Below, piece after piece: positions 7,801 to 27,023 of a DNA stretch of 64,000 bases. The stretch is from Opitutales bacterium. GTDB taxonomy: Bacteria; Verrucomicrobiota; Verrucomicrobiia; Opitutales; JABSRG01. The translations under genes and the position numbers were made by a program. Where the stretch lies: NCBI GenBank assembly GCA_028280845.1, contig JANQKZ010000034.1, positions 1 to 64,000 on the forward strand, given 5' to 3'. Within the stretch, counting starts at the first letter, position 1. Every line of letters begins with the position of its first letter. A model generated the notes under the pieces. That model was not told where the DNA came from. It ran no database searches and saw only the letters and a list, made by a program, of their open reading frames with translations.

Positions 7801-10537
7801 GGACACTGTGGCCATGATCGACCAGTTGCTGAAGCACTTGAATAAGGCGCCTGACATCCTCCCGGTGCAAGCCGGTGGTCGGCTCATCGAGGAGCAATAA
7901 GGCCTGATCCTCCGTATGAGCGAATCGGGATAGATACTTGACCAATTTCAAGCGCTGGCTCTCTCCGCCAGATAAGGTATTCAGGGGTTGTCCAAGCTGC
8001 AGATAGCCCAGACCAACATCTTGTAGGGCTTGCAGCCGCGCCTGGATACGCGGTTCCTTTTGAAAGACCTCGAGCGCGCGGTTTACATCCATTCCAAGGA
8101 TATCAGCGATGGTGAAGTCCTGCCATTTGATTTCGAGGACTTCCGGCCGGAAACGTTGACCGTGGCAGGTCGGGCATTCGACAAAGACATCGCTAAGGAA
8201 CTGCATTTCCACCCGCTCATAGCCAAGTCCTGAACAGGTGGGGCACCGCCCTTCCCCGGAATTAAAGCTGAAATGGGCATGGGTCATGCCCTGGGCTTTT
8301 GCCTGGTCGGTGGCAGCGAATCGTTCTCGAATGGGGTCCCATGCCTCGGTGAAGAGGGCGGGATTGGACCTGGGGGTCCGGCTGATGGGGGCCTGGTCTA
8401 CAAGGACAATTTCTGAAAAGCCGTGAGGCTGATCAATCTCCCGAATCATTGCCGGGTCCTCAGTCTGGCGTCCTCGCAGATTGAGAAGACCCTGGTATAT
8501 GACGTTGTTGAGGAGGGTGGATTTTCCTGAGCCGGATACTCCGCTAATGGCGACCAGTCGATTCAAGGGAACGGAAATATCGAGGTCTTTGATGTTGTGC
8601 TTTGATGCTCCGTAGAAATGGATGGAGGAACGGGGGTTTGCTTCGCGGGATGAGGACCCCCCTGCTCTATTTTCAGGAGAGCCCTTGCCCTTATACGGGC
8701 TTATTTCAGCTACCCTTCGTCGACTATCCGGAATGGCGATGGATTTGCGACCAGCCAGATAATCGCCGGTCAGCGAGCCTTTCTTTTTTAGGAGTTGCTT
8801 CAGGGTGCCATTAAAGGTGAGCTGCCCACCTCCATTTCCGGGATAGGGTCCGATTTCGAGGAGGGTGTCCGCCGCCTTCATAATCTCCTCATCATGTTCG
8901 ACTACAACGACGGTGTTTCCCAGCGAGGTGAGGCGTTTCAGGATGCCGATCAGGCGATCGATGTCTCTTGCGTGTAATCCTACACTGGGTTCGTCGAGCA
9001 CGAACAGGGTATCGACCAGGGAGGTGCCCAGGCAGCCCGTCAGGTTGACCCGCATGGTTTCCCCTCCGCTCAGGGTACGGCTGGACCGATCGAGGGTGAG
9101 GTAGCCGAGGCCGACCTGTTCGAGGTAACGCAGGCGGGTGAGGATAGCTTCCAGGGCGAGATCCAATTGGTGCTGGACGCCATTCCTGCCAGGAGTTGCG
9201 GCCTTGGATTGTGAACCGGGGTTCCCTTTCTCAATGAGGTGGAGGAGATCTGAAATCGGCAATAGGTAGAGATCTGGAAGACGATACCCCTTCCATCTCC
9301 AATTCAGGGCTTCCGGCTGAAGCCGGGTTCCCCCGCAATGAGGACAACTCACATACGCGCGGTATTTGGAAAGAAATACCCGGACATGCATCTTATAGGT
9401 CTGAGTTTCCAGCCAATCGAAAAAACGCCGAACCCCATACCATTTATGAGTCCACTCTCCTTCCTGATAATCCGCCTCACCCTCCATGATGAACTCGATA
9501 GCCTCCTCAGCCATGTCGGCCCAGGGGATGTGAGTCGGGATACCCTTCGCCTTGCACGCGCGTATGCAATCGCGCAGGCTTTCTGAGTAAACACTGCCGG
9601 TAAAGGCTTTGATCGCGCCCTCTTCAAGGCTTTTGGTGTGGTCCGGCACCACCAGCCGATAATCGATTTCGATGACTCGGCCGAACCCACGGCAATGGGG
9701 GCAGGCCCCGACGGGAGAATTGAAGGAAAACAGGGCAGGGGAGGAGGGGGCGAATGTTTTGCCCGTGGATGGCGAGTGCAGGCCCTCCGAGAAGATCGCG
9801 AGCGGCGACCCGTCCATGGCAAACAATTGGATGACCCCCTGGCCGAAGTGGAGAGCAGTCTCAATGGACTCGATGAACCGCCCGCGCTGGTTGCGGTTGA
9901 GTTTGATGCGATCCTGGATGACGTAGACCGCATCACCTTCCGGGCCTGCGAGGTTTTCCGTGAGACGAATGGGTGGAGCTCCTTCCCCGGGTAAGATCCG
10001 CGAATACCCCTGGGCGATCAGGGACTCGTAGATTTCTTTCCAGCTCAGGTTGTCCGGTCGGGTAATCTTAAAGGTCACAAGGACCTCCTGCTTCTCGAAG
10101 CCGTGAATTGCATCGAGCCAGATACTTTGAGGATTGTCGTCCTTGATTCGTTCTCCCGTCTCGGGGTCAAACAGTTCGGCTACATGTGCAAACCAGATTT
10201 TAAAGAAATCCGTCAACTCGGTCATGGTGCCCACGGTGGATCGTGAGGTCTTTACCGTATTCCGCTGTTCGATAGCGATGGATGGGCGAATATTGTCGAT
10301 TTGGTCCACCTGTGGGCGATCCAATAGCTCAAGAAATTGCCGTGTGTATGGACTGAATGTCTCTACGTACCGGCGTTGCCCTTCAGCATGAATGGTTTCG
10401 AATACAAGGGATGACTTTCCCGCCCCACTCAAACCAGTGACAACCACGAGGTGTCCGAGGGGGACATCCAGATCGAAGCCCTTCAGGTTATTTTGGCGGA
10501 CCCCTTTAAGGGAGATAAAATTCGCGCGTTCAGCCAT
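4811..10537 (-). CDS. uvrA: Double-length (fused tandem) UvrA excinuclease ATPase subunit
   Basis: A 1908-residue protein made of two complete UvrA protomers in one chain; ordinary UvrA has about 940 residues. UvrA recognises damaged DNA and loads UvrB in nucleotide excision repair. Four ABC Walker A motifs are visible: GLSGAGKS near 35, GVSGSGKS near 666 and 1036, and GVSGAGKS near 1580. Each has an LSGGE signature and an LDEP- or LEEP-type Walker B. Cys pairs of the zinc modules (CPHC, CPTC...CPTC, CPTC...CPDC, CEKC...CDAC) occur in both halves. A low-complexity linker around 955-985 joins them. The ordinary UvrA dimer is thus covalent here. Similar long UvrAs are known from Chlamydiae and relatives. 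Confidence 0.96.
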   Translation of the reverse strand: MAERANFISLKGVRQNNLKGFDLDVPLGHLVVVTGLSGAGKSSLVFETIHAEGQRRYVETFSPYTRQFLELLDRPQVDQIDNIRPSIAIEQRNTVKTSRSTVGTMTELTDFFKIWFAHVAELFDPETGERIKDDNPQSIWLDAIHGFEKQEVLVTFKITRPDNLSWKEIYESLIAQGYSRILPGEGAPPIRLTENLAGPEGDAVYVIQDRIKLNRNQRGRFIESIETALHFGQGVIQLFAMDGSPLAIFSEGLHSPSTGKTFAPSSPALFSFNSPVGACPHCRGFGRVIEIDYRLVVPDHTKSLEEGAIKAFTGSVYSESLRDCIRACKAKGIPTHIPWADMAEEAIEFIMEGEADYQEGEWTHKWYGVRRFFDWLETQTYKMHVRVFLSKYRAYVSCPHCGGTRLQPEALNWRWKGYRLPDLYLLPISDLLHLIEKGNPGSQSKAATPGRNGVQHQLDLALEAILTRLRYLEQVGLGYLTLDRSSRTLSGGETMRVNLTGCLGTSLVDTLFVLDEPSVGLHARDIDRLIGILKRLTSLGNTVVVVEHDEEIMKAADTLLEIGPYPGNGGGQLTFNGTLKQLLKKKGSLTGDYLAGRKSIAIPDSRRRVAEISPYKGKGSPENRAGGSSSREANPRSSIHFYGASKHNIKDLDISVPLNRLVAISGVSGSGKSTLLNNVIYQGLLNLRGRQTEDPAMIREIDQPHGFSEIVLVDQAPISRTPRSNPALFTEAWDPIRERFAATDQAKAQGMTHAHFSFNSGEGRCPTCSGLGYERVEMQFLSDVFVECPTCHGQRFRPEVLEIKWQDFTIADILGMDVNRALEVFQKEPRIQARLQALQDVGLGYLQLGQPLNTLSGGESQRLKLVKYLSRFAHTEDQALLLLDEPTTGLHREDVRRLIQVLQQLVDHGHSVLVIEHQMDVLAAADWLIEMGPEAGSKGGKLVAAGTPETIAKKKTETGPYLKELLTENLKSEIRADGSDTGNPKSETTVKEASAPFGNGNRSSDANALRVIGAREHNLKDISVNIPHGKLTVVTGVSGSGKSSLAFDIIFAEGQRRFMESMSSYARQFVEQMPKPDIDALLGIAPTVAIEQRVTRGSRKSTVATITEVAQYLRLLYARVGVQHHPRTGKAVLPMTDPQIQNRLKEVLARKNLARAKHLYLFAPLIRGRKGHHQPLANWAIDHGYQFLRCDGVLTPLSNFQKLDRYKEHDIELLVADLGSQPMQAYDSQKKRQRVDPAAAMKTALRLGKGSCFLMTPDGTIQAWFSKTKTDPETGDSFPELDPKHFSWNSSKGWCPTCRGHGRIYDWMKDREDMPEDIDDVDHGSLCPDCGGERLNEISRAVRLPLRGGQSISLPELLAQHPRSLLKTLSKMKLDARGRQIADDIIPQISERLQFMDKVGIEYLTLDRATNTLSGGEAQRIRLAAQLGSNLAGVLYVLDEPSIGLHARDNDRLIQSMTELRDKGNTLLVVEHDDDTMRAADHIIDMGPGAGLHGGEVLAKGPVDQVLTNKNSLTAQYLKTGIPHPLRGKYRQLPAPYKAGSRAKTNDQWLLLQNASLRNLQGETLQLPLNRLIMVCGVSGAGKSTLIRDCMKPAIEGAIQNQAKRLKGTALVRDGHYFLEDLENGQPPLDQIVNGNGFKQVIEVDQSPIGKTPRSTPSTYIGAYNIIRDLFASLPEAKMRGMNSGTFSFNTKGGRCEKCKGAGRIKLEMAFLPDTYINCDACNGLRYGPELDDIRWKGKNIGEVLNMSFEEAADFFDFHSHLKAMLNLMVETGLGYLNLGQSSPTLSGGEAQRLKLVSELAKGLQTYTERSRGIRPRNLYILEEPTIGLHLRDCERLIELLHRLVDQGHTVIVIEHHLDLIAEADYVVEVGPGGGDKGGRILYQGKVSGLLKRKSSPTAPYLKDKLIS

Positions 10538-10668
10538 GTTCGAAGAAACGCTAACTATCCATCAGGCTCTTCGGGAAATCAAACCGGATCTGGAGGGAAT
10601 TGTGTTGTGTGATTGGTAAACTGGGAAACAACCCAGTCCCCATCCACATCCCCACCTCACACTCCGCC

Positions 10669-11811
10669 TCAGTATCGGTAAATGACGTTGGCTCGGATGG
10701 TGCTATCTCGTTCCTCGACGTCTGGGCCGACCCGGGTGTCCAATTCGTATTCGTAATCGAGTTCCATGGCCAGCTGTTGCGTGATGGAGCCGAGCAGGCC
10801 AACCCGTAGGGTCATGTCATAGGAGGCAAAATCGTCTGGGGCGATCACACCTTCAAAGGACTGGTTGATCGAATAGTTTTTATTGATAGTATAGTTGAAG
10901 GCCTGGAAGAGGCGAAGGAGCAGGGTCCACTCTTCCTCCATGGTGGATTCTTGGTCGAGGTAGGAGGCGGAGAAGCCTGGAACGACCTGGATTTCAAAGC
11001 GCTCCGGCTTTTTGTGCTTCCAACCATACCCGACAGTCCCGCGAGCCTCGTGGTTGATCCGTTTGACCTGGTCGACGGCGTAGGAGCTTTCCGCCTGAAA
11101 GAAGGTACTTTGAGTGAGGTTGTAATCCCAGCGGAGCCGGCCGCTGTAGCGATCCCGGATCTTTCTTCTGGACTCATCGCGGGTTTCATACTCATAGCGA
11201 AGAAAAACTCCCCAAGTATCCTTTTCCCGTTGGATCCGGATGGTATTTTCGAAGTTAAAGCGGAATCGCTCGTTATTGCCAGAGACGTTGTCGAGGCCGG
11301 CCCGCAGTCGCCCATTCCAGGATTTGGGGTACTTTACCCAACGGAGTCCGGGAATATCCGTCTGTTTAAAATCTGATTCGGGAGGTTGTTCGGCCTCACT
11401 CTCCTCTTCTAGTTCTTCCGGGCCTGGAGCGGAAACCGCTCCCCCTTCTTCCTTTTCAATCTCTACATACACCATGCCCATATCGATCTCGGCGAGAGGA
11501 TCCTTTTCTCCGGGGGTGGTAAAGCCGCTCCCCAGGACTTGAGCCTCCCCTTTTTCAATTTCGAGGACTCCCAGGACTGAGGATTCAAAGACAATCGTGC
11601 CATCAGGCCAGTTTTCAATGAAGCGCCCCCGGAGGGTGTCGCCATTCTTCAGCAGGAGAATGTCGGCGTTTACGGAAGCTGTGATGGAAGAGGGGGTGGT
11701 CAGTTGTTCGCCGTCTCCCTGAGGGGCGCGTTCCTGCGCTACACCGGTCATGGGCAAAAGCCAACAGGCGGCTCCCAAAACACCAAAAAGTCTATTCAAG
11801 CAATCAATCAT
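10669..11811 (-). CDS. DUF481 outer-membrane beta-barrel protein
   Basis: A 380-residue exported protein. It has an N-terminal signal peptide (LFGVLGAACWLLPMTGVAQ), then a small strand-rich domain (ILLLKNGDTLRGRFIENWPDG) common before DUF481 barrels, then an acidic linker. About 200 residues of alternating-strand barrel sequence follow, ending in an aromatic C-terminal residue (VIYRY), as outer-membrane barrels require for BAM recognition. Function in the family is unknown; a salt-induced or porin-like role has been suggested for relatives. It stands alone, 131 bases upstream of uvrA. Confidence 0.85.
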   Translation of the reverse strand: MIDCLNRLFGVLGAACWLLPMTGVAQERAPQGDGEQLTTPSSITASVNADILLLKNGDTLRGRFIENWPDGTIVFESSVLGVLEIEKGEAQVLGSGFTTPGEKDPLAEIDMGMVYVEIEKEEGGAVSAPGPEELEEESEAEQPPESDFKQTDIPGLRWVKYPKSWNGRLRAGLDNVSGNNERFRFNFENTIRIQREKDTWGVFLRYEYETRDESRRKIRDRYSGRLRWDYNLTQSTFFQAESSYAVDQVKRINHEARGTVGYGWKHKKPERFEIQVVPGFSASYLDQESTMEEEWTLLLRLFQAFNYTINKNYSINQSFEGVIAPDDFASYDMTLRVGLLGSITQQLAMELDYEYELDTRVGPDVEERDSTIRANVIYRY

Positions 11812-14945: not shown

Positions 14946-15728
14946 ATGTTTACATTGACCTTTAAAGGATTGTCGGAGGACCTGAAGCAAGCGGGCGCTG
15001 AATTTGATGTTTGGTCCAGTTCGGTTGAAACCAAGGAAGCGGTGATGGATCACCTGAGGCAGATCGCAGAGGCGGAGCTGGATGACTTTGTCTTTGAGCC
15101 CAGTGTCATGATTACAGGTGAGGATTATCACTTCGAGGTGCGACGAGAGGGTCGAGACCTGTTTCTCTACGATAAAAAGAACCTGAACATCCAAGGCTTG
15201 GGTATATCCCCTGAAACGGTATTCAATCAATCGGGGTTGGAAACCCTGGCTGATGACGAATCCGAGGAGCCTGCCCCTAGTCTTGCTGCATCGAAGGACA
15301 GGAAAGGCTTCGTGGTTCTACTGGCCATCGGATTGGTTGCTACAGTCCTTTTGCAAAGCGCAATCTATATGGCCAATGACCCGGACCCGTTTAAAGAGGT
15401 GCCGATCCGGGTGGTCAGCAATCCCGATGAGATTGAAACCCTGCGAAGCCAGGTGGTTGGCAATTACATGGAAACGAGCGGTGACGTGGGATTTGGGGTG
15501 GAATTGAAAGCGGACGGCACCTATTCCCTTTGGGAAATGGAGTTAGGTGGAGACAGTGCGGGGAAAACTGAGGTTTTTGAAACCGCCTCCTATTCCTTTG
15601 GAACTGTTTCTGGTGGTGGCAAAGTCATTCTGCTTCAGGATAGCACCTTAGTTGAAATGGGGCCGGACGGCCTGGGGTTTTACGGCTATACACTCGTAAA
15701 GCGGGTGAACACTGAAGGGGATTCATGA
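14946..15728 (+). CDS. Single-pass membrane protein, first gene of pseudopilin operon
   Basis: A 260-residue unknown protein with about 120 cytoplasmic residues and one membrane helix (FVVLLAIGLVATVLLQSAIY, near 127-146). An extracytoplasmic C-terminal domain of beta character follows (GVELKADGTYSLWEMELGGD). The ATG at 14946 is chosen over an in-frame TTG at 14931 because it follows CACTCTCT, matching the pyrimidine leaders seen elsewhere. Its stop overlaps the next start as ATGA (15725-15728), so it is translationally coupled to the first pseudopilin. A role in pilin assembly is inference from context only. Confidence 0.75.
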   Translation: MFTLTFKGLSEDLKQAGAEFDVWSSSVETKEAVMDHLRQIAEAELDDFVFEPSVMITGEDYHFEVRREGRDLFLYDKKNLNIQGLGISPETVFNQSGLETLADDESEEPAPSLAASKDRKGFVVLLAIGLVATVLLQSAIYMANDPDPFKEVPIRVVSNPDEIETLRSQVVGNYMETSGDVGFGVELKADGTYSLWEMELGGDSAGKTEVFETASYSFGTVSGGGKVILLQDSTLVEMGPDGLGFYGYTLVKRVNTEGDS

Positions 15729-16228
15729 GGAGATCTGGACGGCGCGGCTTCTCATTGGTTGAGATCATGATCGTGATCGTGATTATAGGGTTGTTGAATG
15801 CGCTTATCCTTCCAGCTTTATCAAACCTGAGGACTCGCTCCCAGGCAGCCCGGATTGCTTCTGATTTCCGCCTCATGAAAGCCGGGGCAGAAATGTGTAT
15901 CACGGAGTTAGGGAAGGCGCCTCCCAACGGCGTGCCCAGCCGTTTTCCTGCAGACCTCCTCCCCTACTTGCCGTCAAAGGTGACCAGCGGGCAAAACACG
16001 GCCAAGAACGTGTTTCCGAATAGCCGGTGGACGTGGGATAATCATGAAACCAATCGGCGATATGATTGGAAATATGGGATCGGCCTCCGCTCTATTTCGT
16101 CCTTCAACGCCAATCAGAAATTGATGACTGAGGTCGACAAGATCTTAGATGATGGGGATATTAATTCAGGCTACTTTTTCAAAGACCGCTGGCAAGGGTA
16201 CACCTATGCGCTCGAACTCCATGAGTGA
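15725..16228 (+). CDS. Type IV pilin-like/pseudopilin protein 1
   Basis: A 167-residue protein with a class III signal RRSGRRG|FSLVE (Glu at +5) and a hydrophobic helix IMIVIVIIGLLNALILPAL, as cut and N-methylated by PilD-type prepilin peptidase. The remainder is a globular head with no Cys pair (KAPPNGVPSRFPADLLPYLP). No secretion ATPase or other pilus genes are nearby, so this is an orphan pseudopilin. It overlaps both neighbours and shares the same head pattern (E-LG-APP-G-PSR-P-DL-PYLPS) with the following gene, indicating tandem duplication. Confidence 0.9.
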   Translation: MRRSGRRGFSLVEIMIVIVIIGLLNALILPALSNLRTRSQAARIASDFRLMKAGAEMCITELGKAPPNGVPSRFPADLLPYLPSKVTSGQNTAKNVFPNSRWTWDNHETNRRYDWKYGIGLRSISSFNANQKLMTEVDKILDDGDINSGYFFKDRWQGYTYALELHE

Positions 16229-16715
16229 ATCTTCAACACATCGGCGGGGCTTTACCTTAGTAGAGATCATGATTGTCGTGGTCATTATCGGGTTGATCAA
16301 TGCAATCGCTCTGCCGGCTATGGCGGATATTCGCCAGCGAACTTTAGCGACAAGGATGGCCAACGACTTTCGCCTGATTAAAGATGGGATTGAGTTTGGC
16401 TTGACCGAACTGGGGTATGCCCCTCGCGATGGTTATCCCAATCGGCATCCTTCCGATCTTCAACCTTACTTACCCTCGGATGCCATGGAACGCAGCTTTA
16501 TCAATGCGACCTGGGACTGGGAAAACTGGACCGGGCGACGCCGTCAATTCGATCTGGGACTCACCCTGCGGTGGCGTGGCAATACGGGGCATAGCGCCCA
16601 GTATCGGGACGAGTTGATGACTCAGGTTGATGCCATTCTCGACGATGGTGACCTGAGTTCAGGGGTGTTCCAGAAGGAAACCCGCTTTGGCGGGTATGCG
16701 ATCATCTTTGATTAG
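16221..16715 (+). CDS. Type IV pilin-like/pseudopilin protein 2
   Basis: A 164-residue paralog of the preceding gene. It has the signal THRRG|FTLVE, the helix IMIVVVIIGLINAIALPAM and a head with ELGYAPRDGYPNRHPSDLQP. The ATG at 16221, overlapping the previous stop, is the best start; in-frame ATGs at 16206 and 16149 lie deeper in the previous gene. Both heads end in a TQVD/TEVD-ILDDGD segment, a shared signature of the pair. They may form a heterodimer at a filament tip or act in a minimal secretion apparatus encoded elsewhere (inference). Confidence 0.88.
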   Translation: MSESSTHRRGFTLVEIMIVVVIIGLINAIALPAMADIRQRTLATRMANDFRLIKDGIEFGLTELGYAPRDGYPNRHPSDLQPYLPSDAMERSFINATWDWENWTGRRRQFDLGLTLRWRGNTGHSAQYRDELMTQVDAILDDGDLSSGVFQKETRFGGYAIIFD

Positions 16716-16831: not shown

Positions 16832-16924
16832 GGAGAGATGGCAGAGTGGTCGAATGCGCTGGTTTGCTAAACCGGTGGACCCTGTAGAGGGGTCCCGCGG
16901 GTTCGAATCCCGCTCTCTCCGCCA
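16832..16924 (+). tRNA. tRNA-Ser(GCU)
   Basis: The acceptor stem GGAGAGA/TCTCTCC closes the structure. The anticodon arm CTGGT-TTGCTAA-ACCGG places GCT at 34-36. A long variable arm (GGACCCTGTAGAGGGGTCC) is diagnostic of serine. The T arm CGGGTTCGAATCCCG is present, followed by discriminator G and an encoded CCA. It reads AGC/AGU codons. A GCCATCC...GGATGGC hairpin overlaps the 3' end (16921-16948) without a T-run. Confidence 0.97.
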
Positions 16925-17131: not shown

Positions 17132-19075
17132 ATGCCCAACTCCCCTCCGTCTACCGAAGCCGCCGCGGTCGAAACTCATGATCGGTTTTTTCGCGAGTTT
17201 CACCAACATGCACCGCAAATCATCGAACAAGGGCCAGCCCTCTATGACGTGTTGGCTGGGATAGGAGACCGTCAGCGCATGGCGCAGTGCATTGGCCTCC
17301 AGGCGATGGCGCGATTCCGCCTCGGGCGTACCGCCGAGGCGATTCGTTTTCTGGCGGAGTGGGAAGGTGTTTTGGACGAGCTCGATGTACCGCAGGAGAC
17401 CGTCCGCATGCTCAACTTGCGCGGCCTGCTCGCCAAGGCGGAACATGACTATCGCAAGGCGATTGGTTACTTCCGCCGTGGGTTGGAATTGTCCGATGAT
17501 TCGAGTTTACGGGTAAACTTTTGCGGCAACCTGGGGCGCATCTTCAACGATCTCGGCGACTATGGCACCGCGTCGGAGTTGTTCCTCCAGGCTCTACAGG
17601 AAGTCAAAACGAAACCGCAGCCGGCAGAATTGGCCCGCACGCTGACGAATCTGGCGGATACCTGTCACCTCCAGGATCAGCACGACCTTGCGCTACGCTA
17701 CCTCGATGAAGCCATCCCTTATGCGATCGAGACAAAATTCATTGGACTCCAGGTCCAAGTTCACCTCTTCCGCGCCCGCACGCTGGAGAAGCTCGAGCGC
17801 ATCGCCGAGCAAGGGGAAGCATTGGCCGAGGCGGGGCGATTGGTGGAAGAGAGCCCGGATCTCAAGGCAGGCTTTCTTTATCAACGCGATGTGGTGCGAA
17901 TGGAATGCGCCAAGTATGAGCTGCAACACGGTGATCAGGCGCGCGGCCAGACAGATCTCGAGACGCTGATCAGAGGCTCGCATCACCTGAGTTCTCGCGA
18001 ATATACAGACGCATGCCTCACGCTCGCAGACCATGCCGACACGGAACGTGAGCGGGCGATGGAGCTATTGCAAAGTGCCTTAGCCTCGGCCGCGGAGGGA
18101 AACTTGCGCACGGCGGAAGCGGCAGCTCATGCCGGCCTCGCCGCTCGCTTACGGACAACTGACGCAGATACCGCCTATACCCACTTAGCTTGCGCCCGGG
18201 AAATCGAACAAGCCCGCTACTCCGAGGAAAGTGCGCGCCGGCTTCAAGCCGTGGGCCTTCATCGTGAGACGCGCGAACTCCAACAGAAACTCAGCGCAGA
18301 ACAACGGGTGCGAGAAGAAACCGCCCGGCTTCTCACGGAGGTCGAAATGCAGAAAAACCGCGCCGAGGAAGCCAACCGAGCCAAAACCGCCATTCTCAGC
18401 CTCGCGGCACACGATCTCCGCAATCAGGTCGGTTCCCTCCTTCTGGGAGCCGAAACGGTGGCCCACGCCTTGGAAGAACCGGACGAGGTGCTGTCGCTGG
18501 GTGATCTCGTTGTTCTTATCATGCAATCGGGTCGAGACTTGCGGGAACTTCTCGATAGCCTTCTTGATTACGCCGCGATTCAGGAAGGGACACTCAGTTC
18601 CCGGCCGGAATCCGTGGACTTGAACGAGCTCGTCGCCCCTGTTGTCGCGACTTGGGAAAAGGCGGCGGTGAAGAAAGACCAGACGCTTGCCCTTTGCGCC
18701 TCTCGGGAGACCGCAATGCGAGTCCACGTCGATCCGGCTCGGGTGAAGCAAGTGCTACATAACCTTCTCAGTAACGCCGTGAAGTATAGTCCCAAAGGAT
18801 CGCCGCTGGAAGTCGGGGTTACCCGTAAAACGCACCAGGCCCGGCTCGAAGTTCGCGACCGTGGGCCCGGCATTCATGCCGCTGACCAAACACGCCTGTT
18901 TGCGGCCTTCCAACCACTGGACAACCGCCCGACCGGCGACGAGTCATCCACCGGCCTCGGCTTGCACATCGCCAGAGCCATCATCGAGAACGAAGGCGGC
19001 CAGATTGGTTACCAAGCCCGCGACGATGACGGCGGCGGAAGCATTTTTTGGGTCGAATTACCCTTGACCATGTAA
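17132..19075 (+). CDS. Cytoplasmic TPR-histidine kinase 1
   Basis: A 647-residue soluble sensor kinase with no membrane segment. Residues about 1-380 are TPR-like helical repeats (AEHDYRKAIGYFRRGLELSD, FNDLGDYGTASELFLQALQE). A coiled coil leads into a HisKA domain with phospho-acceptor H427 in AAHDLRNQVGSLLLGAE. The usual Pro of the H-box is Gln. The HATPase domain has N-box RVKQVLHNLLSNAVKYSP, G1 RDRGPGI and G2 GLGLHIA. Signals probably arrive through the TPR repeats as protein contacts. Its close paralog lies at 24401. No response regulator is adjacent. Confidence 0.92.
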   Translation: MPNSPPSTEAAAVETHDRFFREFHQHAPQIIEQGPALYDVLAGIGDRQRMAQCIGLQAMARFRLGRTAEAIRFLAEWEGVLDELDVPQETVRMLNLRGLLAKAEHDYRKAIGYFRRGLELSDDSSLRVNFCGNLGRIFNDLGDYGTASELFLQALQEVKTKPQPAELARTLTNLADTCHLQDQHDLALRYLDEAIPYAIETKFIGLQVQVHLFRARTLEKLERIAEQGEALAEAGRLVEESPDLKAGFLYQRDVVRMECAKYELQHGDQARGQTDLETLIRGSHHLSSREYTDACLTLADHADTERERAMELLQSALASAAEGNLRTAEAAAHAGLAARLRTTDADTAYTHLACAREIEQARYSEESARRLQAVGLHRETRELQQKLSAEQRVREETARLLTEVEMQKNRAEEANRAKTAILSLAAHDLRNQVGSLLLGAETVAHALEEPDEVLSLGDLVVLIMQSGRDLRELLDSLLDYAAIQEGTLSSRPESVDLNELVAPVVATWEKAAVKKDQTLALCASRETAMRVHVDPARVKQVLHNLLSNAVKYSPKGSPLEVGVTRKTHQARLEVRDRGPGIHAADQTRLFAAFQPLDNRPTGDESSTGLGLHIARAIIENEGGQIGYQARDDDGGGSIFWVELPLTM

Positions 19076-19207
19076 GTCCTCCCGGGATGCGGTGTGGCTG
19101 GGTTAGGTGGAGTTGGCGTTGGTGGCCACGTTGCAAGCAACGGGCCCTACTTCAAGAAGAGGTTTTTTTTTGAATCAAACTTCGCCGGCGACACACTAGA
19201 GCCCGTT

Positions 19208-21466
19208 TCAGTAAATGCTGATAGAGCGGCGGCTAAATACATGCTTCTGCCCCTCATCTAAAAATCGGGCAACCAGGGAGTAGGATCCTGCCTTTTCCGG
19301 CAGGACCAGACGCGGGATCACCAGGCCTTGCTGCCAGGGGTTGACCCGGACCGTTTCCGTTTGTTCAAGGAGGACTTTCCCGTTCTGTTCAATCCGGACT
19401 GAAACGGTGCGCTCTACTGGCTCTCCCAGATCATTGGTTACCGTGACGGGCACCTGAACCATTTCGCCCGGAGAAAAATGGTCTTCCCATTGCTCGATAC
19501 ATAATCCTACCGGAGCAAATGCGGATTTCATTGCTTTGGCAAAATGAGGATCCAACTTCAAGGCGTTGACATCGATAAAATTATCACAAGTGGCTCCATC
19601 TGGCGGAAGCGAGTGGGCCAACCCAAAAACATGCAGCACGCCGAAACAGGTCCGGGCAGATCTCCAGAATTCAGTTAACCCTTGCAAGATGTAGGCGTAG
19701 TGTTGACGGCGCTCCTCGGCTGAAGCGTTCTCACCCAATACGGCATCGTAATAAGGTTTCGTCAGGGTGGTTGGGCTTCCGTCACGGTTGAGCCAGAAGT
19801 ATCCGTATTCATTGAGTATGCATGGCTGGTCACGGTAGTCGTTACGTTCGAGTTTATATGCGTATTGAAAGGGTGAATACAATGTTCCCGGAACTTTATC
19901 TTTGTCCTTGAGGTCAGAGAGGCGAAAGGGGCGGGCGGCCTCTACTCCCCGGGCGTTCTCGGCCTCACTTCCAGCGCGAAACCGTCCGAAATACTGGTGG
20001 GCTTCCCGGATATCCGTGGATCGCTGGGGGGGTGACCAGCCGTTGTCCCAGGGCCGGTTACTGTAATCAAGGCCTCGCACCATTTCAATGGCTGCTCCGG
20101 TTTCTTTCGACCATGTTTCATTTTGGGCATCCCAAGCCACAATGCTCGGGTGGTTCATGAGGTGCTGCATCCACCGGGCATACTCCGTGCTTAGCTTTTC
20201 TCTGGTTAGTCCTTCCGGGTAAATCCCATACTTCCGTTGAGGATCCTGGCGTTCTTTGTCAAAGTCTGCCTGGGATACGCCCTCTTTCAGCGCGTACCAT
20301 ATCGGGTATTCGGCGAACAGGGCAAAGCCTTCCTCATCGGCTATGTCATACCAGAACTCAGGGAACACACTGATACAGGTCCGGGCGGAATTCATTCCCA
20401 GGGTTTTGAAGGTCCGAAACAGGCCACGCACCCAAGTTTCGTTCCAAGGCTGGTCCCGACAGACGGGATCTTCGAAGAACCGAAACAAGGCAATATTGGT
20501 TCCCCGGAAAAAGTAGGGATTCCCGTTGAGAAGGGCTCGGTTTGTATGGGCAGGGTCCAACCGGAATCCACGCCACCCAAACCGTTCCACATGCCGGTAG
20601 GGTCCAAGCTTTATTACGGCTTTGTACAAGTGTGGGTGCTCGGGAGTCCACTCCTTCAGACCTTTTGCGGGTATTTGCTCATAAGTCACCAATTCCTGTT
20701 GGGATTCAAAAGTGACCGGATCGAGACCATGATTCATCACCACCGACCCTTCAGCGTCGTCGATCAACAATAGCCGCGCGGGATAGGTCGTCCGGCTGCC
20801 AACATGCCTTACTGTCATCTGCAGGGTAATCTGCCCTTCTTCGAATACCGGTGCCACCTGGACGGAATCGAAGTAGATATCCTCAAATAGATGGAGCTGC
20901 ACCGAGTCATAGATACCGGGGATATATCGTATCTTCTCGACCTCACCCCCGGTCGCAACAACGTCCTGGAGCGACTCAATGTGAGCGCCTACCGCAATGA
21001 CCAGTTCATTTTCCTCTCCCGCAGGTTTCAGGTATGGAGTGAGATTGACTGTGGTGGGGGAGAAGTTAATCCAGTTCTCCGCAACTTTATGGCCGTTAAG
21101 GTATATCTTTGCTCCATATTTGACCAAATTGATTTTCAAGATGGCATGAGCGGGGTCTTCTCTCACAAGGGAAAACACCTTGCGGTAGTAGAAACAATCC
21201 CTTTCCGGCACAGGAAGGCCTACGCCGGAAAATTCCGGTTCAGCCAGCTTGACGAGCCCCGGCACGGGCACTTTTCCGGGAAAAGCCGAAGGGAGCGTAT
21301 CCCACTGTCCTTCGGCAATGTCCCACGATCCGTCCAGCGAAATCACCTTTTGGATCCCTTCACCGGGGATGTTAGATTCCTGATGACCAGTATGGCCGAC
21401 CCCAGTGAGCCCAGGAATCAAAACAACCGCAATCAAGGTGGCTACCTGAATACCAATAAGCCTCAT
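19208..21466 (-). CDS. Secreted glycoside hydrolase family 2 enzyme
   Basis: A 752-residue exported beta-glycosidase (galactosidase, glucuronidase or mannosidase type). After a signal peptide come a jelly-roll sugar-binding domain (about 45-200), an Ig-like domain (about 200-300) and a TIM barrel. The barrel has the acid/base pair N449-E450 (WDAQNETW) and nucleophile E553 (ILNEYGYFW). A further Ig-like domain closes the protein. The exact substrate cannot be read from sequence. A TATAAT box lies only 7 bases before the ATG (21474-21479), which would make a nearly leaderless transcript. It converges with TPR-kinase 1. Confidence 0.9.
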   Translation of the reverse strand: MRLIGIQVATLIAVVLIPGLTGVGHTGHQESNIPGEGIQKVISLDGSWDIAEGQWDTLPSAFPGKVPVPGLVKLAEPEFSGVGLPVPERDCFYYRKVFSLVREDPAHAILKINLVKYGAKIYLNGHKVAENWINFSPTTVNLTPYLKPAGEENELVIAVGAHIESLQDVVATGGEVEKIRYIPGIYDSVQLHLFEDIYFDSVQVAPVFEEGQITLQMTVRHVGSRTTYPARLLLIDDAEGSVVMNHGLDPVTFESQQELVTYEQIPAKGLKEWTPEHPHLYKAVIKLGPYRHVERFGWRGFRLDPAHTNRALLNGNPYFFRGTNIALFRFFEDPVCRDQPWNETWVRGLFRTFKTLGMNSARTCISVFPEFWYDIADEEGFALFAEYPIWYALKEGVSQADFDKERQDPQRKYGIYPEGLTREKLSTEYARWMQHLMNHPSIVAWDAQNETWSKETGAAIEMVRGLDYSNRPWDNGWSPPQRSTDIREAHQYFGRFRAGSEAENARGVEAARPFRLSDLKDKDKVPGTLYSPFQYAYKLERNDYRDQPCILNEYGYFWLNRDGSPTTLTKPYYDAVLGENASAEERRQHYAYILQGLTEFWRSARTCFGVLHVFGLAHSLPPDGATCDNFIDVNALKLDPHFAKAMKSAFAPVGLCIEQWEDHFSPGEMVQVPVTVTNDLGEPVERTVSVRIEQNGKVLLEQTETVRVNPWQQGLVIPRLVLPEKAGSYSLVARFLDEGQKHVFSRRSISIY

Positions 21467-21473
21467 AGGTTTA

Positions 21474-21479
21474 TTATAT
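21474..21479 (-). promoter_or_regulatory. Candidate -10 box (TATAAT) directly before the GH2 start
   Basis: On the minus strand TATAAT ends 7 bases before the ATG. No good -35 element sits 17 bases upstream. If used, the mRNA would be leaderless or nearly so. Confidence 0.3.
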
Positions 21480-21648
21480 AGTTATGGTATCGCTAAAGGA
21501 AACCTAAATAACCCCCTCCGCAGTTGAGCTGCCAAAATCGAAGATCAGATCTTCTCCCGTCACGCTGTGACGAATCAGACCGGGGTCGAGAAGAGCGCGA
21601 CAAGGCCAGCACGTGTGGCCAAGGCATGATCACGGCAAATGAGCAGGT

Positions 21649-24033
21649 TCAGCTGCAACGCCGGCACTTGCGTTGCCAGAGGACGAAGCCCAGGCCGAGC
21701 AAGCCCGCGAGTAGCGCGGCGAGACGGGGTTCCGGCACGACGGCATAATCGAACCCGTTGAGCTCATTCACCGTAAAGGTATACCAACCGTTGGTGTAAT
21801 CGATTATGCCAGGGGTGTAGCTCACCCATGCATTGTCCCCGGCCCCGGTGGTTCGCTGATAGACCCCGAAAGTCGGTTCGATTGGTGTTCCGATATATAA
21901 CGACAGCGCAATGGAGAGCGAGGTATTCAAGCCGGTCGCGGCGAAAGAATAGGCGCCGAGAGCACCGTAACCCGAAACGGTCGACAGATTGAGGTCCGTC
22001 ACCGTGAGGCTGCCATTGGTGCCGGCATTTTCGTTGAGGGCCACCATGACGTCGCCGAACTGTACCCGGTCACCGCCGTTAATCCCGCTCTCGGTGCCAT
22101 CGTTGCCGGTATCGGTTTTAATGGCACTGACGGTGAAAGTGGGCACACCGGAGGGAAGACTCGTCGTGCCGCCGATGCCCACATAGCTGCCCGCCCCAAG
22201 AAAAGAAGCGGAGCTGATGGGCATGTAGCTTCCCGCTGCCGTCTGTTGCCCGGCGATGAAATTGACCGTGCCGTTGTTGGTGAACGAGGTGGTCGCGGTG
22301 AGCATGCTGTTGCCGCTGACCACCAGGTTTACCGTGCTGGCCGCATTCACGGTGGCGGTGGTGAAACTGGCAGAACCAGACTCGCTGATGTTAAAGCTGC
22401 TGGCGCCCGTATCGCCCAAATTGAGAGAGCTTGCCGAAACGGTAGAACCGGTTCCCCGAACGCTCACGATGCCGCCACTGGCGGACTCTCCGACAGTAAT
22501 ATAGTTCGAAGCTGTTGCCTGCCCCCCATTGAGCACATTGAGCTCGCCCGGACCACTGCCGCCAACGATGATATTGGCGCTCGAGAGACGCGAGTTGTTA
22601 CCACTGACCGTGACCTCGCCTGAGCCCGAAGCTCCGTTTCCGATGGTCGTATCGGCAAAGGTCGTCACCTGCGCCCCATCCAGGATGTTCAGCGAAGCTC
22701 TTCCGCCTTCGCTCAAAGTAATCCCACCGGTAATGGTTTCGAGGGTCGTGCCCGTGCCCTGCACCGTCACTTGGCCAACCGCCCCCGGATTGAGTCCGAC
22801 GAAAACGAAATGTCCGACCTCAGCCCGAGCGCCGTCGGACACGATCAGATTTCCGGTGCCGCTGTGGCCGACCAGGTAATTGTCCGAGCTGATGATAGTG
22901 GAGTTGGCTCCCTGCACCGTGATCTGGCCATCGCCGGTGGCAAAGTCTCCGAGCCTGATGACTGCTCCCTCCAGCCGACCGCCGTTCGAAACCACGGCAG
23001 TGCCCTTCCCCCTTCGGCCAACATTTGCGCTACCGTCGGTGGCGACAACGGAGGAGCCCGTGCCGTCGACCGTCAGACTGCCCTCCGAGCCTTCATCACT
23101 GCCGACTATAATACGTGAGGCTTGAACGTTACTCCCGCCCGTTACATTGAGCGTTCCCTTGCCATCATCTCCCACGTTGAGCAGGTCAGCTACGGTCACC
23201 CTTGAATTGGCGCCCTGCACGGTGAGACTTCCCGTGCTGATGCCTCCCACATCGTCGGCGATAACAATGTCATCGGTGGCGTACAGCAGACCTCCGTTGG
23301 AAACGGTGACCTGCCCGGTGCCGCCATCGCCCAGAAAAAAGTCGCGGCCGCGGAGGATCGAATTGATGCCATCAACCAGCACCGTGCCGCTGCCCGTGGG
23401 GTCATCCCCCAGATTGAACACGTCGGCAATCTCGACCAGACCACCATTTCGGATGGTGAGTGATCCGATGCCGTCGTCTCCCACAAAAATATCGTCGCTG
23501 GCCCGCAGAATGGATCCCGCACCATCAACCGTCACCGTGCCGCTGCTGGTGGCGGAGTCGCCCAACCAGATATCGACCGCTGAAGTCACGACGGCACCAC
23601 TGCTGATGTTAACCACACCGTTCCCCCCGGATCCAATGTCTTCGGAACCGAAGACCGCACTGCCTTCCGCGCCGATGTGGAAATCATTGGCCAGGTTCAG
23701 CGTCGAGCCGGCTCCGCTGATATCAACTGTCCCAGTCACGCCTGTGTTTCGACCCAGGTCCAGGTAGTGGAGGTTGAGATCGGAGCCGCCGGTGATAGTG
23801 AGTAAACCATCACTCGTCACGCCGACGACGCCGTCCGTATTGGGTGTCGTGGCCGGATCGGCATCAGCATCCCCCCCGCCCGTCCAGAAAGCAGCGTCCG
23901 TGCTCGTGGGCTCACTGCCCGTCGGACCGCTCAGGAAATCGCCACTGACGGTGATTTGTCCCTGAGCGACATGCGGCGCTGTCAGGGCGTAGAGCAAGAG
24001 TGTAAGAATGAAAAGAAGCGAGATAAGTTTCAT
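21649..24033 (-). CDS. PEP-CTERM surface protein with T5SS/PEP-CTERM-type repeats
   Basis: A 794-residue exported protein. A signal peptide (LISLLFILTLLLYALTAPHV) is followed by more than ten copies of a roughly 45-residue beta-solenoid repeat. The consensus is like GSGTVTVDGAGS-L, then VG-DG-G-L-I-NGG-V. This is the pattern of the repeats shared by autotransporter-like and PEP-CTERM proteins. The C-terminus is a sorting signal: VPEP, a hydrophobic helix (LAALLAGLLGLGFVLW) and a basic tail. An exosortase would cut and anchor it; none lies in this window. It is probably an extracellular matrix or biofilm component. The gene is GC-richer than its surroundings. Confidence 0.92.
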   Translation of the reverse strand: MKLISLLFILTLLLYALTAPHVAQGQITVSGDFLSGPTGSEPTSTDAAFWTGGGDADADPATTPNTDGVVGVTSDGLLTITGGSDLNLHYLDLGRNTGVTGTVDISGAGSTLNLANDFHIGAEGSAVFGSEDIGSGGNGVVNISSGAVVTSAVDIWLGDSATSSGTVTVDGAGSILRASDDIFVGDDGIGSLTIRNGGLVEIADVFNLGDDPTGSGTVLVDGINSILRGRDFFLGDGGTGQVTVSNGGLLYATDDIVIADDVGGISTGSLTVQGANSRVTVADLLNVGDDGKGTLNVTGGSNVQASRIIVGSDEGSEGSLTVDGTGSSVVATDGSANVGRRGKGTAVVSNGGRLEGAVIRLGDFATGDGQITVQGANSTIISSDNYLVGHSGTGNLIVSDGARAEVGHFVFVGLNPGAVGQVTVQGTGTTLETITGGITLSEGGRASLNILDGAQVTTFADTTIGNGASGSGEVTVSGNNSRLSSANIIVGGSGPGELNVLNGGQATASNYITVGESASGGIVSVRGTGSTVSASSLNLGDTGASSFNISESGSASFTTATVNAASTVNLVVSGNSMLTATTSFTNNGTVNFIAGQQTAAGSYMPISSASFLGAGSYVGIGGTTSLPSGVPTFTVSAIKTDTGNDGTESGINGGDRVQFGDVMVALNENAGTNGSLTVTDLNLSTVSGYGALGAYSFAATGLNTSLSIALSLYIGTPIEPTFGVYQRTTGAGDNAWVSYTPGIIDYTNGWYTFTVNELNGFDYAVVPEPRLAALLAGLLGLGFVLWQRKCRRCS

Positions 24034-24400
24034 TTTGTAAAAAAATGTAAAACTATGGTAATGAAAGCTTAAGACAGATATAGAATATCAAATTAGCGGC
24101 TGTCTGTCATTGCCCTGGTGCTTCATAAAACCGCTTCTTTTGTTTCATCCACCGGGATTCTTTCAGGCTTTTTTCAGACTTTCCCATTTTTCCTGATGCA
24201 GCGGAAGCAAGGTCCTCATCAGCAGAGAGACGATTCACCTGGGAGCACAAAAAAATTGGCCCTGGGCTTATCAAAATATCTATGGCGGGGGCTACAGGAT
24301 TTAGTAAGCGTCAGTTTGCCGAATACTCGCTGGGCCCGCTTCTGGAGGCGTTCTTCCATTCTCCATTGCGCACAGGTCTGGCCCATTATAGAGTCATGAG
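24034..24400. other. Divergent intergenic region between PEP-CTERM gene and TPR-kinase 2
   Basis: A region of 367 bases that must hold both promoters. It is AT-rich near 24034-24090. A 40-codon frame at 24282-24404 (ATG...TGA) overlaps the kinase start as ATGA and could be a coupled leader peptide, but its sequence resembles no known protein and it has no clear start signal. An A-run at 24249-24255 lacks a convincing hairpin. Nothing else was seen. Confidence 0.4.
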
Positions 24401-26326
24401 ATGAAGTTGCCTTCGAAGGAGTTGGAGCAAGCAGTCAATGCCCTTGTCGAAGGGTTTCCCGCGAATGCTTCACAGGTGGTAGACGAAGCCCGGCCGCTTT
24501 TCGAAGCGTTGCGGGACGGGGGGGACAGACAAAGCTTGCAGCGTTGCCTCGTGGTCGAACTCAACGCGCGTGTCTATCTCGGGCAACTTGAAGCAGCTGA
24601 GGCCTTGATGGATCGTTGGGAACCTGTCGCTGAGGCCGAGGGGTGGAATCTTGCCCGTACGAAGTTCTGTAATTTGCGGGGAATCATCGCACGAAAAAAA
24701 CATGATTATGTCTCTGCCGGAACTTTTTATCGGCGCGGTCTGGCTTTGGCTGAAACGGCAGAAGATAGGGGGGCATTTTGTGGGAATCTCGGTAACATAT
24801 TCAGTCAACTGGGTGACTTTGCTTCCGCCTTTGATTTGCTGAAGCAAAGCTTGGAGCATTTCCGGGAGGCGGGCCTTGAACGCAAGCAGGGCGAGATCCT
24901 GCTCTTCATGGGGTCGGCTTGTCAGGGGATGGAACAGCATGAACTCGCCTTGCGCTACTTTCAGCAGAGTTTCGATCTCCTTGATGATACCCATGACTTA
25001 AGCCGCAAGATATGGGGATGGCTTTGTGTCAGCCAGTGTCATGGCGAGTTGAGTGATATCCCTCGTCAACGCGAGGCGATTGAACAAGCCGAGGCAATGC
25101 TGAAGGCCGCCCCAGACCGACAGACTGTTCCTCCGGAGGACGTGATGAACGTGCGGAGCGTATGGGCGCAGTTTGAGCTCGATCATGGAGACGCGCAGGA
25201 AGGTCGTCGCATGCTTCTCGACCTCCTGAGCGCGGAACAAGTGCTTACGGCAGAGAAAACATCGGTGCTTTCCCTGGCTCTCGCCAATCACGCCAAAACT
25301 CCGCCTGACCTGGCCGAGCAAATGGCTCAACGTGCCAAGGCGGAGGCGGAGGAGCGCGGTTATCAAAAAGAACTCGCTGGAGCCTACCGCTGCCTCTATC
25401 GCCTGGCGAAGGAGCGCAGTCCTGCCGAAGCCTTGTCCCACCTGGAGAAAGTCCTCGAGCTTGAGCAGGTCCGTTTTACGGAGACGACCAACAAGCGATT
25501 GCAAGCCGTGGAGCTTCAGCAAAAAACGTGGGAGCTTGGCCAGGAGTTGTGGGAAGAACAACGCTTACGCAAAGAGACCGCTCGCCTGCTCGCGGAAGTC
25601 GAAAAGCAAAAAGCGCGCGCGGAAGAGGCCAACCGCGCGAAGACAGCCATCCTGGGCTTGACTGCCCATGACCTGCGTAATCAGGTGGCCTCGTTGCTCC
25701 TGGGTGTCGAAACCCTGGTCCACGCGACCAAGAAGCCAGATAAGCTTCCCCCCTTGCCCGAGCTTGCCCGTATGATCACCGCGTCCGGCGCGGATCTCCG
25801 CGATCTCCTCCACGGTCTTCTTGACTACGCTGCGATTCAGGAAGGCACGCTCGGATCCAGACCGGAGCTGGTTGACTTAGCCGAACTCGTCACCTCTGCC
25901 GTCGCACCCTGGGAAAAAGCCGCGGCCGAGAAAGAGCAGACGCTCGCTCTCCGGCTTCCTCCGACGCGTTCGATTCCCGGCCAGTTCGACCCGGCGCGGC
26001 TCAAGCAGGTGCTGCAGAATCTCGTCAGTAACGCGGTGAAATACGCCCCGCGAAATACAGAAATCGAGGTTGCCTTGAGCAAGCGGGAGGACATTGCGCG
26101 TCTTGACGTACGCGACCGCGGCCCTGGGATCGATGCGGACGACGAAGCGCGCCTGTTCCAAGCCTTTCACCCGCTTTCCAACCGTCCGACCGGCGATGAA
26201 TCTTCCATTGGTCTAGGTCTCCACATCGCCAAAGCAATCATTGAAAATGAGGGCGGCCGGATCGGCTACACCCCCCGCGACGGGGGTGGGAGTGTCTTTT
26301 GGGTCGAGTTGTCGTTGGACAAATAG
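24401..26326 (+). CDS. Cytoplasmic TPR-histidine kinase 2
   Basis: A 641-residue paralog of the kinase at 17132 with the same plan. TPR repeats (KHDYVSAGTFYRRGLALAET, LGDFASAFDLLKQSLEHF) are followed by a coiled coil and HisKA with H423 in TAHDLRNQVASLLLGVE, again with Gln in place of the H-box Pro. The HATPase motifs are RLKQVLQNLVSNAVKYAP, RDRGPGI and GLGLHIA. The C-terminal 80 residues are almost identical between the two kinases, while the TPR halves differ more, as expected if they sense different partners. The Hpt gene that starts 99 bases downstream is a plausible relay partner (inference). Confidence 0.92.
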   Translation: MKLPSKELEQAVNALVEGFPANASQVVDEARPLFEALRDGGDRQSLQRCLVVELNARVYLGQLEAAEALMDRWEPVAEAEGWNLARTKFCNLRGIIARKKHDYVSAGTFYRRGLALAETAEDRGAFCGNLGNIFSQLGDFASAFDLLKQSLEHFREAGLERKQGEILLFMGSACQGMEQHELALRYFQQSFDLLDDTHDLSRKIWGWLCVSQCHGELSDIPRQREAIEQAEAMLKAAPDRQTVPPEDVMNVRSVWAQFELDHGDAQEGRRMLLDLLSAEQVLTAEKTSVLSLALANHAKTPPDLAEQMAQRAKAEAEERGYQKELAGAYRCLYRLAKERSPAEALSHLEKVLELEQVRFTETTNKRLQAVELQQKTWELGQELWEEQRLRKETARLLAEVEKQKARAEEANRAKTAILGLTAHDLRNQVASLLLGVETLVHATKKPDKLPPLPELARMITASGADLRDLLHGLLDYAAIQEGTLGSRPELVDLAELVTSAVAPWEKAAAEKEQTLALRLPPTRSIPGQFDPARLKQVLQNLVSNAVKYAPRNTEIEVALSKREDIARLDVRDRGPGIDADDEARLFQAFHPLSNRPTGDESSIGLGLHIAKAIIENEGGRIGYTPRDGGGSVFWVELSLDK

Positions 26327-26424
26327 CATCTGGGATACAAGCTTTCATGCCCGGCTTTGGGAGTTCCTTGATTGTTTCCGCTTTTCTTTTGTATAAACAG
26401 CAGTAGACTTATGATTAATCCCCT

Positions 26425-26808
26425 ATGAGTAATCAGCCGATATTTGCTGAGGATGAAGTGCTTCGCCGGTTCAAGGGCCGAACCAAACTCTTCCTCAAAT
26501 TCAGCCATCGTTTTTTTGGAAACATTCCTCAATTGAAAGAAGATATTGAGCGGTTTCGTGCGCTCGAAGATCCGGATGAAATACGGACCTGGGCGCACTC
26601 CATGGCTGGGGTGGTTGGCAACTTGGGGGGAAAACGCCTGTTTGATGCGGCCAAGGCACTGGAATTCGCCGCGGAGGAGACAGAGAAAACCGCTACGATC
26701 GCTGCGCGTTTAGAAGATCTCGACCGAGAGTTGCGCGTGTTTGAGTCGGAATTGGGGATTCGTTCTGAGCAGATGGAGCAGAAGAAGCGGGCGGAAGAGT
26801 CTGAGTAG
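26425..26808 (+). CDS. Stand-alone Hpt-domain phosphotransfer protein
   Basis: A 127-residue helical protein matching the Hpt fold: VLRRFKGRTKLFLKFSHRFF, then the active-site helix WAHSMAGVVGNLGGKRLFDA, with H58 as the expected phosphorylated residue. In most Hpt proteins the motif is HxLKG; here it is HSMAG, so the conserved Lys is Ala. The C-terminal helix continues as a charged coiled coil. It follows TPR-kinase 2 and precedes a zinc-ribbon gene on the same strand. Such proteins shuttle phosphate between a receiver domain and another receiver; the receivers here are not local. Confidence 0.82.
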   Translation: MSNQPIFAEDEVLRRFKGRTKLFLKFSHRFFGNIPQLKEDIERFRALEDPDEIRTWAHSMAGVVGNLGGKRLFDAAKALEFAAEETEKTATIAARLEDLDRELRVFESELGIRSEQMEQKKRAEESE

Positions 26809-26867
26809 CCGCTAAAAGGCGTAAAGCAATTTAATGGATTAGGGTAAATGGGTGGTTTCCCAGATTT

Positions 26868-27023
26868 ATGGATATCGACACGCCTCTGACCTGCATCCAT
26901 TGTGGCCAGCCGACTGAACATCTGGTGGGTGAAGTTTCGATCTGTGAGGCCTGCTATCCCCTGGCGGGGGCGTGTTGCGCGGCTCTGGATGACACTCATC
27001 TGGAGGAAGAGGAAGCCGAATAG
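26868..27023 (+). CDS. 51-residue CxxC/CxxC zinc-ribbon protein
   Basis: A short open frame read directly from the DNA. It encodes MDIDTPLTCIHCGQPTEHLV followed by a second knuckle CEAC and a CC pair, then an acidic tail (LEEEEAE). C9, C12, C26 and C29 form two CxxC knuckles 13 residues apart, as in one zinc ribbon. It lies 59 bases after the Hpt gene on the same strand. The first half resembles small treble-clef or ribbon proteins; the function is unknown. The ordered Cys spacing argues for a real gene. Confidence 0.7.
   Translation: MDIDTPLTCIHCGQPTEHLVGEVSICEACYPLAGACCAALDDTHLEEEEAE

Follow-up and report, generated by a model that had tools for sequence, protein, structure and literature searches.

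A proposed split two-component system with two soluble TPR kinases as a candidate for control of PEP-CTERM surface proteins in an Opitutales bacterium

In purpose, the nearest known system to the one considered here is PrsK/PrsR/PrsT, by which proteobacteria regulate PEP-CTERM genes (Haft et al. 2006, PMC1569441). The two are alike in that a histidine kinase and a response regulator go with PEP-CTERM genes, an upstream DNA element is shared and a TPR protein is involved. However, its defining features are not those of the proteins considered here: in that paper PrsK is a transmembrane protein, PrsR is NtrC-like and interacts with sigma-54, and the TPRs of PrsT belong to a separate lipoprotein, whereas our kinases (k1 and k2) have no membrane segment, the proposed regulator is of the OmpR type and the TPRs lie within the soluble kinase. 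An AraC-type regulator would also belong to the system here, unlike in PrsK/PrsR/PrsT as outlined there. For Verrucomicrobium spinosum the paper gives 65 PEP-CTERM proteins and a table with no PrsK, PrsR or PrsT, and it states that further regulators and motifs are still to be found.

Among known TPR kinases that act on surface proteins, the nearest is FimS of the FimS/FimR pair of Porphyromonas gingivalis, a sensor kinase with TPRs and with control over surface appendage proteins; according to PMC11053733 its TPRs are periplasmic, between two membrane helices, whereas k1 and k2 have no membrane helices. Against NCBIfam HK_Porph_FimS (NF053520), k2 scored 88.9 of 600 bits, far below the cut-off. 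A PDB search also returned RapF (6.4e-5), as a generic TPR match. Bacillus Rap proteins are soluble TPR proteins acting on two-component signalling; their target is the response regulator, and they lack the kinase core that k1 and k2 carry. Searches of the openly accessible journal literature found no OmpR/AraC/TPR-kinase system for PEP-CTERM genes.

The window, that is the whole stretch of DNA analysed (64,000 nucleotides), covers the initial 64 kb of contig C41 in a 4.79-Mb, 62-contig assembly. The locus is arranged as follows:

16832..16924, + strand: tRNA-Ser(gct), found with ARAGORN; in the flank just 5' of k1 and outside the system
17132..19075, + strand: k1, 647-aa sensor histidine kinase, soluble, with TPRs; H-box histidine H427
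19208..21466, - strand: GH2-type glycoside hydrolase with a signal-peptide-like N-terminus; Pfam GH2 domains over cut-off
21649..24033, - strand: T5SS/PEP-CTERM-associated repeat protein, 794 aa (TIGR04393, 1.1e-70), with a PEP-CTERM-like tail
24034..24400: intergenic region from which the repeat gene and k2 diverge
24034..24043, - strand: TTTTTACAAA, also present twice in the AraC/PEP-CTERM region of contig C6 of the same genome; suggestive
24105..24114, + strand: TGTCATTGCC, candidate core of an operator, 72 bp before the repeat gene; suggestive
24401..26326, + strand: k2, 641-aa paralogue of k1, likewise a soluble sensor histidine kinase with TPRs; H-box histidine H423
26425..26808, + strand: stand-alone Hpt protein, 127 aa, H58; PF01627 over cut-off
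26868..27023, + strand: 51-aa ORF with two CxxC pairs, after the Hpt gene; absent from the sequence-only reading's list

The GH2 protein has three Pfam GH2 domains over cut-off, with motif glutamates E450 and E553, which we presume to be catalytic. A search for tandem repeats returned none. The 51-aa ORF directly 3' of the Hpt gene has an acidic tail; it matched no Pfam family over cut-off, and no relative outside its own locus was found among the loci compared. Elsewhere in the window, two overlapping type IV pilin-like genes stand in tandem at 15725-16715, just 5' of the tRNA-Ser gene, and a UvrA-like ORF of double length (1908 aa, named by eye) occupies 4811-10537.

The sequence-only reading had described two paralogous TPR kinases with no membrane segment, placed either side of a minus-strand GH2 gene and a repeat gene, and this picture was borne out by Pfam, TIGR04393 and hydropathy. 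Both kinases carry TPRs and a HATPase_c domain (PF02518; 3.7e-23 in k1, 3.4e-24 in k2). The HisKA model (PF00512) stays below its cut-off in both (18.1 and 19.3 vs 26.9 bits), and an H-box is present at H427 of k1 and H423 of k2; by H-box and HATPase_c, they classify as HisKA-type sensor kinases. The highest 19-residue Kyte-Doolittle mean is 1.03 for k1 and 0.88 for k2, and neither contains a receiver domain (PF00072) at E<=0.1. An AlphaFold model of k1, built from a three-row alignment (mean pLDDT 78, pTM 0.53), has paired helices up to about residue 340, followed by a long helix and a kinase core resembling solved kinases such as HK853.

The two proteins are paralogous along their full length (E 1e-174), with 46% of residues identical over 625 aa. 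The TPR half is the most divergent part (28%), against 61% for the coiled-coil linker and 65% for the core (k1 419-647), and the last 65 residues reach 75%: the TPR halves do differ, as had been claimed, and the cores are more distant than the "nearly identical" of the same account. A third soluble-looking TPR kinase in this genome (L059:7888-9750) is 29% identical to k2 in the region they have in common. Its gene converges on that of a receiver-bearing regulator (9755-11314), the two gene ends lying 5 bp apart, and kinase and regulator likely form a separate pair.

A scan of the genome_contigs collection with k1 and k2, pattern-based and so likely to miss members, gave seven loci, one of them full-length (L049), from the Opitutaceae MAG PL25a_bin.28. 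There a PEP-CTERM gene (-), an AraC-type gene (+), an OmpR-type regulator gene (+) and a TPR kinase gene (+) are contiguous, and no Hpt gene lies beside the kinase. Being 57% identical to k1 over 645 aa and 41% to k2, the MAG kinase is the orthologue of k1. All three kinases (that of the MAG is L049:7926-9884) have Q at position H+5 of the H-box, a position usually held by Pro and indeed Pro in three other TPR kinases compared. At H+7, H+11 and H+12, which we take to be specificity positions of the DHp domain, k1, k2 and the MAG kinase have G/A/G, L/L/L and G/G/G, respectively. Similar specificity positions under divergent TPR halves fit the earlier suggestion of two inputs into one output. 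In their cores k1 and k2 resemble each other more than they resemble the MAG kinase, which is not so for their TPR halves; since trees leave the branching of the three kinases open (AU p 0.12-0.38), we do not claim gene conversion between the k1 and k2 cores.

In our genome, the best match of the MAG regulator is G000:C6:157866-158510 (57%; the second-best regulator reaches 38%), a protein with Response_reg and Trans_reg_C domains, i.e. of OmpR type. At this C6 locus (L077) the regulator gene, a homologue of the AraC-type gene (56%) and a homologue of the PEP-CTERM gene (44%) stand side by side. No kinase ORF was found there in 19 kb, and none of the 26 kinase-core matches in the genome falls at the locus. 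The four-gene set of the MAG therefore occupies two places here: C6 has three of the genes, and the window has the kinase as two copies. The PEP-CTERM proteins of C6 gave no profile match. A 104-aa ORF (L077:6713-7027) separates the AraC gene of C6 from the 238-aa PEP-CTERM gene; it has a signal-peptide-like start and a PEP-CTERM-like end and is perhaps a shrunken PEP-CTERM gene.

Kinship of the two regulators agrees with this. When the MAG regulator was searched against 372 genomes of the order, the C6 regulator came first apart from the query (2.9e-76, against 1.1e-62 for the runner-up), and the two form one clade with support 100/100. They have in common a helix 1 motif, EDNRWMRxQLExLL, absent from the 17 others in a comparison of 20 loci from which L069, whose broken frame yielded no row, was left out. 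Relatives of the kinase at E<=1e-50 occur in 3 of the 372 genomes: our own, the MAG (G313) and G288, the latter on a 3.3-kb contig (1.8e-54); the best match outside our genome reaches 4e-135. Matches to the AraC-type regulator at E<=1e-25 are likewise found in three (about 1e-229 in our genome and the MAG, 4.6e-40 in G040), and a close AraC-type regulator together with a close kinase in the same two genomes only. G001, a genome of the same family, gave no match for the kinase, the AraC-type regulator or the C6-type regulator at the thresholds used. A profile of the TPR half matched one of 384 genomes of the class, our own; as the MAG is missing from these matches, that draw of genomes probably did not include it. 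No relative of the kinase or of the AraC-type regulator was found on viral contigs, and plasmids gave kinase-core matches only, with none of 3840 records covering 80% of the query.

From the gene content, the orthology, the co-occurrence and the conserved DNA block presented below, we propose that both TPR kinases signal to the C6 OmpR-type regulator as a split two-component system controlling PEP-CTERM surface proteins (probability roughly 0.57). The pairing of kinase and regulator, with the partner taken from orthology, and the direction of control are what we infer from these sequence comparisons. Each of k1 and k2 would sense a cytoplasmic cue through its TPR superhelix, and the signal would travel along the long coiled coil to the HisKA-type/HATPase core, which would phosphorylate the C6 regulator. 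Together with the adjoining AraC-type regulator, the latter would control the PEP-CTERM surface proteins on C6 and, more tentatively, also the repeat protein between the kinases. k2 would provide a second input to the same output, and the local Hpt protein would stand outside the core system. Several points count against this proposal: the close gene set occurs in only two genomes, the genome is a 62-contig assembly, the kinase trees do not settle how k1, k2 and the MAG kinase branch, no profile matched the PEP-CTERM proteins of C6, and the regulator family is broad, with members in 51 of 372 genomes of the order at E<=1e-52.

The sequence-only reading had envisaged a phosphorelay through the Hpt protein. 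That a stand-alone Hpt follows k2 is correct: the protein, which starts 98 bp after k2, scores 27.8 bits against PF01627 (cut-off 24.6), its predicted helices fit a four-helix bundle, with H58 as the histidine of the HxxxG motif, and its model matches solved Hpt proteins (TM 0.51-0.71, Foldseek probability up to 1.00, at E of at least 0.1). It resembles HptB of Pseudomonas aeruginosa (7c1i) in its single domain, four-helix bundle and conserved His. The hybrid kinases that feed HptB contain receiver domains; k1 and k2 have none. HisKA-type kinases phosphorylate receivers rather than Hpts, and His-to-His transfer is not normal. At E<=0.001 the Hpt protein has matches in 4 of 52 relatives, our genome included, elsewhere none better than 5e-6, and its best match in the genome of the k1 orthologue is at 0.05. 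Within our searches the pairing of kinase and Hpt is thus unique to this genome, an outcome that the sequence-only reading had itself named as refuting its idea. As the kinases have no receiver domain and the pairing was found nowhere else, be it in genomes of the order and class or in that of the k1 orthologue, the relay is not supported; we reject the Hpt as a conserved partner, and it is probably not the partner of these kinases. Nor is a lone Hpt unusual here, since the genome has six Hpt matches, three of them in short frames.

A longer route, in which phosphate from k1 and k2 would reach the Hpt (26425) by way of a free-standing receiver and then move to a further receiver, would make use of a genuine Hpt separated from k2 by a gap with no + strand terminator-like site, and of 51 receiver matches in the genome, some in frames short enough for single-domain proteins. 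It seems improbable to us: the kinases have no receiver domain and none adjoins them, the closest receiver ORFs in the window lying about 16 kb and about 8 kb off, and the k1 orthologue adjoins an OmpR-type regulator, not an Hpt; the absence of the pairing elsewhere and the other Hpt matches of the genome weigh against it as well. The Hpt could instead act as a brake or phosphate sink, taking phosphate from the regulator or blocking the k2 core with no forward relay. Its position just 3' of k2 and its fold would suit such a role, the Hpt four-helix bundle being akin to a DHp domain; with no orthologue, and with position as its sole specific support, we give this idea very little credence.

The window itself encodes an OmpR-type regulator (34522-35256), 8 kb from the kinases and with no kinase beside it. 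The kinases might act on this protein or on another receiver, the C6 trio being by now independent, and gene splitting can indeed accompany rewiring. This regulator is however kept in G001 (74% identity), where a search with k2 gave no kinase at E<=1e-30. In the MAG its counterpart (62%) lies on a contig other than the kinase's, and it is only 28% identical to the regulator that adjoins the k1 orthologue. We consider it an unlikely partner, disfavoured by its pattern of conservation in G001 and the MAG. In both the MAG and the window, it is found near hisG and an exonuclease-like gene. Of 24 window proteins, it alone found a match on the 35.9-kb contig of G001 that was compared.

Returning to the C6 regulator as the proposed partner, we compared the AraC/PEP-CTERM regions of the MAG and C6. 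They share the block TGTCATTGCC[CT]CCCTGTTCCAA[AT]TCTGGC: over 29 bp, 27 positions are identical and ungapped, and none of 1000 shuffles was equally good, making this a well supported candidate regulatory block. Its first 10 bp, TGTCATTGCC, occur four times in 968,338 bases of our genome (49 pieces), twice within ORFs and twice in intergenic DNA. One intergenic copy is at C6, 73 bp before the 104-aa ORF with the PEP-CTERM-like tail and 87 bp before the AraC gene; the other precedes the repeat gene of the window, and the two have the same orientation to the PEP-CTERM-like gene. TTTTTACAAA has five copies in the same sample: two in the C6 region, one at the start of the repeat gene and two elsewhere in the window. 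Both 10-mers were chosen because they are common to two regions, therefore only their further matches count as tests. Taken whole, the 29-bp block does not set the window site apart: 17 of 29 positions match there, and 735 sites of the sample score 17 or more; control of the window repeat gene therefore rests on the 10-mer, and the TGTCATTGCC site there is a suggestive candidate operator.

In addition, window positions 24199-24222 align with the MAG region at 21 of 24 positions, a result equalled in 1 of 1000 shuffles, uncorrected. The best alignments of window with C6, window with G040 and C6 with G040 were matched by 45, 76 and 978 of 1000 shuffles, respectively, so we see no wider promoter similarity. 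The C6 region also has a palindrome, CAAATCTG-AGC-CAGATTTG (L077:6602-6620), that overlaps the 29-bp block, and near-identical direct repeats of TCATTRGACTGGAGTACC, about 22 bp apart (L093, ~5809-5850), precede the G040 TIGR04393 gene that adjoins an AraC relative.

The repeat protein between the kinases matches TIGR04393 in nine stretches (233.5 bits). Earlier described as a PEP-CTERM repeat protein, it keeps the repeats under this profile; its tail, VPEPRLAALLAGLLGLGFVLWQRKCRRC, is PEP-CTERM-like as read by eye and by a home-made rule, and PEP-CTERM profiles gave no match. It is probably a surface protein, judging by these features. In G040, two relatives of the AraC-type regulator (32% and 26%) are each divergent to a surface-type gene, encoding a TIGR04393 repeat protein (1.5e-181) and a choice-of-anchor beta-helix protein; by eye, no TPR-kinase ORF of the k1/k2 kind lies beside them. 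The divergent arrangement with a surface-type gene thus holds in all four loci examined (L049, L077 and the two of G040). Of the earlier idea of polysaccharide or matrix control, the surface part is kept in altered form: the conserved partners are OmpR-type and AraC-type regulators and PEP-CTERM proteins.

It may still be that k1 and k2 are unconnected with the intervening genes, and that chance placed the repeat gene and the GH2 gene beside tandem kinase copies. Both are on the opposite strand, and no GH2 or TIGR04393 protein was noticed by eye among ORFs within 8 kb of the k1 orthologue. Against this, in both genomes the kinase has a PEP-CTERM or PEP-CTERM-like gene close by, and 10-mers are common to the DNA upstream of the repeat gene and the C6 AraC/PEP-CTERM region; on balance we lean away from chance, while regarding it as a serious contender.

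Altogether, the kinase pair, the OmpR-type regulator, the AraC-type factor and the promoter block provide a concrete candidate set for PEP-CTERM control in Verrucomicrobiota, a phylum in which these proteins can be numerous and where, in the study of PMC1569441, the proteobacterial regulators were not found in Verrucomicrobium spinosum. The case also illustrates how the gene next door can suggest the wrong partner for an orphan kinase: here the orthologue of k1 led to a regulator on a different contig. More speculatively, and with low odds in our estimate, the TPR kinases might sense the export state of PEP-CTERM proteins from inside, a precursor or chaperone occupying the TPR groove while the OmpR-type and AraC-type regulators adjust synthesis through the shared operator. 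If true, PEP-CTERM surface proteins in Verrucomicrobiota would be under a feedback circuit with two inputs.
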